From: Gammaproteobacteria bacterium
Lineage (GTDB): Bacteria; Pseudomonadota; Gammaproteobacteria; JAABTG01
Reading direction: 5' to 3'
NCBI GenBank assembly: GCA_034522055.1
Contig: JAXHLS010000002.1
Span: 2,418,001 to 2,482,000, forward strand
DNA: 64,000 nt
This document shows positions 31,639 to 34,677 of the stretch, one piece after another (positions within the stretch are counted from its first letter, which is position 1; each line of letters starts with the position of its first letter). The notes beneath the pieces are model-generated. The model worked only from the letters and a program-made list of their open reading frames with translations, was not told the origin of the DNA and ran no database searches. A program made the position numbers and the translations under genes.

Positions 31639-34600
31639 ATGAGTCCCGAAATCGAAAAATACCAGCAGCGGCTGCGCGATCTCGTGCCGGTGGAGGGCCT
31701 GTCGCCCGCCCTCCAGGATGAGCTATTCGAACGCGCCGAGATCGTCGAATATCCCCAGGGCCGTTTCGTGTTCAGGGAAGGGGATACCGACGACTACAAT
31801 TATTATCTGCTGGAAGGTGAACTGGAGATGTCCACCCACGGCACGGTGACCAATCGTTACGTCGGGGGCTCCGATACCTGCCGCTATCCCGTGGCACAGC
31901 TGAGACCGCGCAAGTTCTCGGCCCAGGTGGCCAAGCCGGCCATGGTATTTCGGGTCCATCGCCATCATCTGGATGAACTGCAGCGACGCCATGCCTCCGG
32001 CGGCGGCGTCATCCAGGTAGAGGAGGCCGCCGGCGGCGGCGACTGGATGAGCAGCATGCTCCAGTCGGAGCTGTTCTCGCGTATCCCCGCCACCAACCTC
32101 CAGCGCCTGTTTGCCGCGGTGGACTACATCGAGGTTCAGGCGGGCCAGGAAATCATCACCCAGGGGGACCCGGGGGACTTCTATTACATCATCCACCAGG
32201 GCACCTGCGATGTGCTGGTGGAGCCCAAGTCCGGGGGCAAGAAGGTGAGGGTGGCCACCCTCAAGCCCAATGACAGCTTCGGCGAGGAGGCCCTGGTCAC
32301 CGACGCGGCGCGCAATGCCACCATCCGCATGACCAGCCCGGGGCAGCTGTTGCGCCTCGGTAAGAGTGACTTCCAGGCCCTCATCCGGGACGTGCTGCTG
32401 GAGTCTGTAAGCTTCGACAAGGCCGAGCGCATGGTGGCCGAGGGCGCCCGCTGGCTGGACGTGCGTTTCGTCGAGGACTTCGAGAAAGTCTCCATACCCG
32501 GTGCCCTGAACATCCCCTTCAACGTGCTGCGCCTGCGGCGGGAGGAACTGGACCCGGACACGCGCTATATCACCTACTGCAACAACGGCCTGCGCAGTTC
32601 GGTGGCGGCATTCCTGCTGATCCAGCGCGGCTTCGACGTCTGTTTCCTGGATCGGGGGTTGGAGAACAGTCCCCTGGCGGGGCGGCTGGCGGCGCAGAAT
32701 GTCGACACGCCTACCGTGCCGGGGACCACGGCACTTGCTTCCGAAGCGCCCGCTGCGTCGGCCCCCGAGGTCGTAGCACCCTCCCCGGCAGCCCCCGCTG
32801 CCCCTACCAACGACAAGGCCCTGGAGCGTCTCAGGGAGGAACTCGAAAAGACTCGGACGCAGCTCGAACAGGCCGCGCATATGAAACGCGAGGCGGACGC
32901 CTCCAGGCGCGCCTTCGAGAAGATGGTGGAGCAGAAGTTCAACCTGGCGAAGCAGAAGATCAGGGACGAAGCGGGCAAGGCCGCCCATGCCAGGGAGGAG
33001 GCCGCACGCCTGGGTCGGGAACTGGAAGCGGCCCGCGGCGAGGCCGCGGAAGGGGACAAGCTGCGCCAGTTGGCGGAGGACCATGCCGCCCAGCTCGACG
33101 AACAGCGCAGCAGCCTGGAGGTCCGGTTCCAGGAAGACATGAAGGTCGCGCGTGCCGAATGGGACGAGAAGGAACACCGGCTCACGGCGGAGAGGGAGGC
33201 CCTGGAGCAGGAGTTGGAGCAGCTGCGGCAGGAACTCAACCATGCCCGCGAGCAGGCGGCGTCAGACCTCGAGGAGGTGGTGAGCCAGGCCCGTGAGGCC
33301 GCCGAGCAGGAACGGGCGTCCCGCGCGACGGAGCTGGCATCCCTCACGGAACAGCTCGCGACCGTGGACGTAGACAAGGCGCGCCTCGAGGAGGAACTGG
33401 AAGCTCTGCGCGGTCACAGCGCCGAAGCCGGGCGTCAGGTGGAGGACCTCACGCGCGAGCGGGACGAGGGCGCCACTGCCATGGCCGGGTTGCGTGACGA
33501 GGTCGAAAGCCTCCAAGAGGCACGGCAGGCCTTGGCCGAAGAACTGGAGTCCGCCAGGGCCCGGAACGCCGAGGATGCCTCTCAGTTGGACCGGCTCACG
33601 GAGGAACGGGACGCCGCCCACGAGCGCCTGGCGGCCCTCGAGGACGAACTGGCGGCCGAGCGTGCGTCACGGGACGAGGCGCAGGCGGCCCTGACTGGAG
33701 AGCGGGATACGGCCCGGCAACGAGTCGAGGAGTTGGAGCGGCAATTGGAGGCCCTGGGGCAGGAAAGGGACACGTCCGGGCAACGAGCCGAGGAGGCGCA
33801 ACGGCAAATCGACGTCTTGCGGCAGGAACGGGAGGATGAGCAGCGCGTCCTGGCCACAGAGCGGGACGACGCCTGCCAGCGTGCGGAGGCGCTGGAAACG
33901 GAACTCGCCACTTTACGGGAGGAATTGGAGAAGGAGCAGGCCGCCGTTGCCGTCGCGCAGGATGCCCTGACCCGGGAACGGGATGAGCTGGCCGGGCGCG
34001 TGAAGACCCTTGAGGAATCCCTGGCCGCTGCCCGCGAAGGCGGCGATGCGGCGGCTCGGGACGCCGGCGAGCGGGCTCGGCAGGCCGAGGAGACATTGAC
34101 CGAGGCCCGGAGCCAATGGGAAGAACAACGGGTCGCCCTGGAGTCCCAGCTGGCAGAGGCCAATGCCGTGATGGGCGAATTCGACAAGCTGCGGGAGGAC
34201 ATGGAGAGTGGCCGACGGGCGGTGCAGGAGGCGGCGGAACGCCAGGAGCAGGAACTCGACTCCCTGGAGCAGACCCTGCGGCGGGAGGCGGAAGAGGCCC
34301 TGGAAAACGAGCGGGCACGCCTGGAACGGGAATTCGACGAGCGTCTGGCCAAGACCAAGCAATCCTGGCAGGCGGACGTGGGGGTGGATACCGCCGGGGA
34401 CGTGGCCGCCTTCATGGCCGGCGATGAACGAGTCGATCGGTTGGAGGCGGAACTCGCCACCAGCCGCGAAGAACTGGAACGGACGAAGGATGCCTTGAGG
34501 TCTGCAGAAGTGGCCCGGGAGGCCGCCGAGGAGCAGCTGCGCCAGACCCGCGAGGTGGTGCCCAGGAAGGAAGATCTGCCGGACGATCAGAACCGCCTCG

Positions 34601-34677
34601 TGGATCCGGCCAAGATCCGCGAACTCATGGAGCGCCGCCGCGAACTCCTGAAGCGCCAGTCCAAGGAGAAGGACTGA
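31639..34677 (+). CDS. cNMP-binding x2 / rhodanese / long coiled-coil protein
   Basis: A 1012-residue protein with no signal peptide. Residues about 20-115 are a cyclic-nucleotide-type beta-barrel that lacks the FGE phosphate-binding cassette. Residues about 143-250 form a second barrel with a recognisable cassette, FGEEALVTDAARNATI, where the arginine that contacts the phosphate is present. Residues about 265-345 are a rhodanese domain with the active cysteine C314 in ITYCNNGLRSS. From about 392 to 995 is a continuous E/R/A/L-rich coiled coil. Rhodanese plus cNMP domains are known together in short proteins; the 600-residue coil is unusual. A structural or scaffolding role in sulfur or redox signalling is only inference. 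Confidence 0.85.
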   Translation: MSPEIEKYQQRLRDLVPVEGLSPALQDELFERAEIVEYPQGRFVFREGDTDDYNYYLLEGELEMSTHGTVTNRYVGGSDTCRYPVAQLRPRKFSAQVAKPAMVFRVHRHHLDELQRRHASGGGVIQVEEAAGGGDWMSSMLQSELFSRIPATNLQRLFAAVDYIEVQAGQEIITQGDPGDFYYIIHQGTCDVLVEPKSGGKKVRVATLKPNDSFGEEALVTDAARNATIRMTSPGQLLRLGKSDFQALIRDVLLESVSFDKAERMVAEGARWLDVRFVEDFEKVSIPGALNIPFNVLRLRREELDPDTRYITYCNNGLRSSVAAFLLIQRGFDVCFLDRGLENSPLAGRLAAQNVDTPTVPGTTALASEAPAASAPEVVAPSPAAPAAPTNDKALERLREELEKTRTQLEQAAHMKREADASRRAFEKMVEQKFNLAKQKIRDEAGKAAHAREEAARLGRELEAARGEAAEGDKLRQLAEDHAAQLDEQRSSLEVRFQEDMKVARAEWDEKEHRLTAEREALEQELEQLRQELNHAREQAASDLEEVVSQAREAAEQERASRATELASLTEQLATVDVDKARLEEELEALRGHSAEAGRQVEDLTRERDEGATAMAGLRDEVESLQEARQALAEELESARARNAEDASQLDRLTEERDAAHERLAALEDELAAERASRDEAQAALTGERDTARQRVEELERQLEALGQERDTSGQRAEEAQRQIDVLRQEREDEQRVLATERDDACQRAEALETELATLREELEKEQAAVAVAQDALTRERDELAGRVKTLEESLAAAREGGDAAARDAGERARQAEETLTEARSQWEEQRVALESQLAEANAVMGEFDKLREDMESGRRAVQEAAERQEQELDSLEQTLRREAEEALENERARLEREFDERLAKTKQSWQADVGVDTAGDVAAFMAGDERVDRLEAELATSREELERTKDALRSAEVAREAAEEQLRQTREVVPRKEDLPDDQNRLVDPAKIRELMERRRELLKRQSKEKD

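Follow-up and report, generated by a model that had tools for sequence, protein, structure and literature searches.

The gene at positions 31639-34677 on the forward strand of the window (the whole 64,000-nucleotide stretch of gammaproteobacterial DNA that was analysed) encodes a member of a common and apparently unstudied protein family that, judged from its sequences, most likely senses cAMP and would pass this signal to a rhodanese domain and a long, rod-like coiled coil. The domains concerned are already known. What is new is a modular family that combines degenerate and intact cyclic-nucleotide-binding (CNB) barrels, coils that are under selection, and a link to cyclases.

The window gene and its cyclic-nucleotide-binding barrels

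The gene is a single intact frame that opens with ATG, has no internal stop codons, and carries the sequence AAGGGA just 5′ of its start. Its parts are arranged in the following manner.

31639..34677, +: CNB-CNB-rhodanese-coil protein of 1012 amino acids, span including the stop codon
31744..31992, +: first cNMP-binding barrel, residues 36-118 (PF00027, 31.9 bits); has lost FGE and retains the conserved P90-R91
32131..32388, +: second cNMP-binding barrel, residues 165-250; intact phosphate-binding cassette FGEEAL (214-219)...R225-NAT
32416..32664, +: rhodanese domain, residues 260-342 (PF00581, 6e-12); active-site loop C314-NNGLRS
32674..32814, +: Pro/Ala-rich linker, residues 346-392, placed by proline positions in the translation
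32815..34353, +: long coiled coil, residues 393-905; proline-free, heptad z 12.5
34354..34674, +: C-terminal end, residues 906-1012; glycine-containing break, short weak coil and basic end, without the ~60-residue C-terminal motif of most clade members

A Pfam scan of the whole protein returned two cNMP_binding matches (8.8e-26) and one Rhodanese match (6e-12, residues 260-342). Together with the intact frame, this confirms the combination of two barrels, a rhodanese and a long coil in one protein that had been proposed in an earlier note on this DNA. The start of the gene and its first 126 residues are kept at 85% identity in a sister genome (L009, recorded as a Thiotrichales MAG), and the rhomboid-protease gene upstream is syntenic there. 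Given that the codon-position G+C holds one register through core and coil (GC3 0.83, 0.83, 0.79 and 0.81), the gene is not a frameshift-joined pair, and the joining of two genes by frameshift that the earlier note had named as a danger to its reading fails on this constant register and the single open frame. More generally, we assign a negligible probability to a chance fusion or frameshift of a CNB-rhodanese gene with an unrelated coil gene. Core-only homologues of 350-390 amino acids are common, which speaks for such an event, but it is refuted by the one continuous frame with its one codon signature and by the inheritance of coil tails across a clade of approximately 27-36 sampled members.

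Long open frames also lie antisense (−) over the gene, at 31723-33243, 32574-33377 and 33582-34460. Because similar frames cluster among the homologues, as the codon structure of a coil rich in Glu, Arg and Ala predicts, we take them to be shadows. A single-sequence structure prediction of the window protein (pLDDT 34) was set aside, and no pocket was taken from the model.

Both barrels have the PF00027 fold, and only the second also has the FGE...R signature. Scored alone, the first barrel reaches 31.9 bits against PF00027 (cut-off 27.5), and the second reaches 68.2 bits. The FGE (214-216) and phosphate arginine (R225) of the second barrel are exactly as the earlier note had read them; each is preserved in 107 of 109 homologues. 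Moreover, F214, G215, E216, L219, R225, N226 and A227 are invariant in an alignment of 28 family sequences, which places the cassette among the best conserved regions of the entire protein. The first barrel had been described as lacking a cassette, which holds for the FGE but not for the Pro-Arg: P90 and R91, at the place of the cassette Pro-Arg, are also invariant in the 28 sequences, and therefore this barrel appears to have lost the ribose-binding FGE while retaining the residues that align with the cassette arginine. Given that an Asn follows the cassette Arg in nearly all members, unlike in the kinases, the ligand may be a cyclic nucleotide other than cAMP; as far as the alignments indicate, ligand specificity cannot be read from this Asn.

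Distribution, tail types and inheritance of the coil

The domain-architecture search and comparison of coil lengths proposed in the earlier note recovered the CNB-CNB-rhodanese core (E <= 1e-25) in 168 of 369 sampled Gammaproteobacteria genomes, with tails of discrete types. In a wider sample of the phylum, 17 of 299 genomes match, 12 of them Gammaproteobacteria, and the five matches outside this class are weaker and lie in frames of 355-381 amino acids. The core was not found in phage families, and plasmids gave matches to the CNB region only, in Rhizobiales, with no record holding 80% of the core in one place. The genome that carries the window gene has three full-core genes, the others being an 816-amino-acid coil form ~57 kb away and a core-only gene of 388 amino acids. 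Because the core is common and occurs three times in its own genome, the window protein is not an oddity.

Sorted by tail, the 109 full homologues comprise 44 core-only proteins (tails of 0-28 residues), 39 whose tail has no detected membrane segment, and 26 with a coil and a transmembrane segment. The soluble-coil tails are ~240-940 residues long and nearly all coil (34 complete, five cut by a contig end). An FGE-sulfatase motif is carried by 17 of the 26 membrane forms; in L068, L073, L046, L139, L172 and others, the order is a long coil, one transmembrane segment and then the FGE-sulfatase domain; if the core is cytoplasmic, this last domain would sit on the far side of the membrane. Two relatives within the coil clade have a PP2C phosphatase between the rhodanese and the coil, in the order CNB-CNB-rhodanese-PP2C-coil-transmembrane (L124:3779-8986 and L118:2705-7591). 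The first ends in an FGE-sulfatase domain and the second is cut by its contig at the start of one; Pfam confirms both the PP2C and the FGE-sulfatase assignments.

Every family member recovered has the rhodanese domain. In the window protein, the cysteine of this domain lies at C314 within CNNGLRS, where the earlier note had placed it, and the PF00581 match is accompanied by the active-site Cys loop. Of the 109 homologues, 105 retain Cys314, and the strict loop CxxGxRS is found in 39/44 core-only, 31/39 coil and 19/26 coil-transmembrane forms; four proteins have lost the Cys and retained the cassette. Sulfur transfer by this domain is possible. Relaxation of the loop in the long forms and loss of the Cys in a few make it probable that catalysis is not the sole conserved role, and in the few long forms without the Cys the domain would be able to bind but not to transfer. 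Nothing besides the cysteine speaks for the redox signal that had also been suggested. These data bear on whether sulfur transfer or persulfide carriage is the primary function of the protein, with the CNB pair tuning its activity by energy state and the coil only placing it in the cell. The near-universal Cys314, a loop conserved in nearly all members, and the alignment of this ever-present domain with catalytic single-domain rhodaneses and CoA-persulfide reductase domains agree with that account. We nevertheless consider it unlikely, given the relaxation of the loop beyond the Cys in long forms, the Cys-less proteins that keep the cassette, and a search of the family loci examined in which no conserved sulfur-metabolism neighbour was seen.

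The earlier note had described an uninterrupted coil of 600 residues. The long coil is real, but its length was slightly overstated: a strong heptad signal extends over ~513 residues (393-905; z = 12.5 versus shuffles), preceded by the 47-residue Pro/Ala-rich linker and followed by a glycine-containing break at ~906-934 and a weaker end. Proline is absent from 390 to 974.

Mapped on a maximum-likelihood core tree, the core-only label requires five changes, versus a mean of 34.6 for shuffled labels. The window protein lies among soluble-coil members, and the smallest starred set that holds it has 36 rows, 31 of them coil forms. Homologues that end after the rhodanese, which the earlier note had listed as evidence against its reading, exist in numbers, but they mostly form separate lineages. 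We do not claim a single origin of the coil, because the tree was made by a quick method and resolves its deep branches only in part. Between close orthologues the coil length is maintained, with two pairs gap-free over ~455 residues, and identities are 66-82% in the tail and 77-87% in the core. The corresponding dN/dS values, from close orthologue pairs of relatives, are 0.09-0.30 for tails and 0.075-0.20 for cores. Because tail type follows the core tree and lengths are kept under purifying selection, we conclude that the coil is inherited rather than acquired by chance fusion. The low conservation of the coil that had been named as a further objection is contradicted by lengths that are kept, often without gaps, and by dN/dS well below 1. 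On the same grounds, together with tail inheritance, we reject the idea that the coil is a poorly conserved decoration. These measures come from relatives: the contig of the sister genome ends after 126 residues of the gene and a tail search found nothing of the remaining part there, and therefore the window coil has no direct orthologue for comparison.

A C-terminal segment of ~60 residues (W...RIK.RA..A...LLDEIA.QL) is common to 19 coil-clade members. It is seen at the C-termini of L061, L062, L063 and L114-L126 and ends most soluble-coil members; in the one member scanned (L061), it matched no Pfam family. The motif is absent from the window protein and from all six frames of the window, and thus a frameshift does not explain why the window tail lacks it.

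At seven loci, coil-type genes occur as neighbouring pairs, either divergent or in tandem (these loci include L116, L117, L119, L120, L121, L123 and L064). Some of these loci come from related genomes, and therefore the number of independent cases is less than seven. Paired members could form heteromeric coils. Such pairs are expected of partner filaments or heteromeric rods, and they raise the prospect that the coiled-coil protein has a cytoskeletal or organising role, its CNB and rhodanese heads being mainly folded caps or docking sites with marginal ligand binding. The long coils, selected and of kept length between close orthologues, and the C-terminal motif common to 19 members would also suit such a role. 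However, the cassette is among the best conserved parts of the protein, coil-less members with a bare core are equally common (44/109), and coil length varies from ~240 to 940 across lineages, so that we regard this role as quite unlikely. Our best reading is that the coil serves as an oligomerising spacer; judged by its heptad signal (z 12.5), it may form either a dimeric rod or a filament.

Co-distribution with cyclases and gene neighbours

The genome that carries the window gene encodes one class I adenylate cyclase and five class III cyclase domains. Across the 369 Gammaproteobacteria genomes, 165 of the 168 that bear the core also have a class I or III cyclase, leaving three in which neither was detected, and 98 of the 108 genomes with a class I cyclase have the core. 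When one genome per family is taken (n = 156), 42 have the core and class I, 29 the core only, two class I only, and 83 neither, such that 42 of the 44 class-I-bearing representatives have the core. An amtB control is likewise associated (44/75/0/37, one genome per family), with both CyaA and the core, and lifestyle therefore contributes to the co-distribution. Nevertheless, among amtB-bearing genomes of at least 2 Mb, core and class I are still associated (39/25/2/37, odds ratio 29). The per-family statistics account for relatedness up to the level of the family and leave in kinship above it. We regard the co-distribution as good, though indirect, evidence for cAMP. The presence of the family follows that of the cAMP-making enzymes almost genome by genome, which points to a cAMP response beyond CRP. 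With the second-barrel cassette in nearly all homologues and this co-distribution with class I and class III cyclases, the ligand sensing suggested in the earlier note is well supported for the core, and the ligand bound is presumably a cyclic nucleotide.

In one lineage, the core-only gene sits between amtB and aroE. An upstream amtB was seen at 12 loci, one of which (L145) is a coil form, and a downstream aroE at 14. The genome of the window gene has the row glnK, amtB, core-only gene, aroE (L042:3378-7145; C2 near 459000-463000), with domains confirmed. This placement of core-only copies by glnK-amtB and aroE suggests a link to nitrogen status. For the coil clade, no conserved partner gene was found among the neighbours compared; some loci are near Sel1-repeat genes, and some near genes that, judged by eye, resemble MoxR/VWA genes. 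Neighbours of the membrane FGE forms include PfkB, Rieske, TerB and HU-like genes.

Known systems and proposed function

The core profile aligns with the tandem CNB of PKG and PKA regulatory chains over residues 10-260 (E to 6.6e-51), and its rhodanese domain aligns separately with rhodaneses; for none of the best 60 solved chains listed does the best stretch extend over both regions. PKA regulatory subunits and apicomplexan PKG share with the family two consecutive CNB barrels and a PKA-type cassette, whereas the family has no kinase domain, has lost the first cassette, continues into a rhodanese and a coil, and has Asn after the cassette Arg. Membership among PKA regulatory subunits is rejected, given the lost first cassette, the short stretch before the first barrel, and the lack of a recognised kinase nearby. 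A looser analogy would have the protein hold and release a Ser/Thr kinase or phosphatase on binding a cyclic nucleotide. In its favour, tandem CNB pairs linked to kinases give the top database matches, two relatives carry a PP2C fusion, and the genome of the window gene encodes six Ser/Thr kinases, two in the same frame as a CNB domain. Even so, we find this arrangement very unlikely: in the part of the neighbours scanned, no kinase gene was recognised adjoining the family members examined, the rhodanese and coil have no counterpart in PKA regulatory subunits, and the CNB fold alone explains the sequence match. The two kinase frames lie outside the window (G000:C2:3270375-3271523 and 3305767-3306906), encode 428-429 amino acids with a Ser/Thr kinase and a cNMP-binding domain, and are possible cyclic-nucleotide-regulated bacterial kinases.

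Other likenesses are more limited. GlpE, PspE and CoA-persulfide reductase rhodanese domains share the fold and cysteine loop, but here the rhodanese is a domain inside a CNB protein and scores far below the GlpE and PspE model cut-offs. SMC-type proteins are alike in coil composition only (NCBIfam SMC, 35.7 bits, cut-off 567); no head ATPase or hinge domain was found, and SMC membership is rejected. A CRP/FNR transcription factor is also rejected, with no HTH in the whole-protein Pfam scan and a rhodanese following the second barrel. A bacterial CNB fused to a rhodanese homology domain, the same fusion as here, is listed under 'Other_bacterial' (family 23, Table 1) in Kannan et al. 2007 (PMC2246266). 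That entry is one line in a catch-all group, and the line itself gives no tandem barrels, degenerate cassette, coil, membrane or FGE tails, distribution or function. Our literature search, whose reach excluded most subscription journals, found no study of the CNB-CNB-rhodanese family.

With moderate confidence, we propose that the window protein is a cytoplasmic, non-transcriptional effector of a cyclic nucleotide, most likely cAMP, with the rhodanese as output and a coil that oligomerises or spaces it. In this scheme, cAMP from CyaA or class III cyclases would bind the second barrel, a step that we rate higher on its own than the scheme as a whole. Like the non-binding barrel of other tandem CNB proteins, the degenerate first barrel may relay the conformational change or lock it. 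That change would then pass to the adjoining rhodanese domain, whose output may be persulfide chemistry or partner binding. The coil would dimerise or oligomerise the protein and would either fix the distance of the sensor heads (~76 nm for a fully helical coil) or recruit partners. The modular outputs joined to the same core (PP2C and FGE-sulfatase) favour an effector, and the long soluble form, which has no conserved partner gene that names an output, counts against it.

A broader proposal, which we offer tentatively as possible rather than probable, is that Gammaproteobacteria have in this family, alongside CRP, a second major cAMP effector system, one that is non-transcriptional. One sensor core would serve interchangeable outputs, namely a free rhodanese, long coiled-coil scaffolds that are often paired, membrane rods with an FGE-type domain presumably outside, and PP2C, and would connect cAMP with both persulfide chemistry and the organisation of the cell. 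What is understood of cAMP action in the best-studied gammaproteobacterium runs almost wholly through CRP. A family that occurs in nearly half of the sampled Gammaproteobacteria, almost never without a cyclase, with its cassette preserved and without a DNA-binding domain, is an obvious candidate to mediate cAMP action directly, at the post-translational level.
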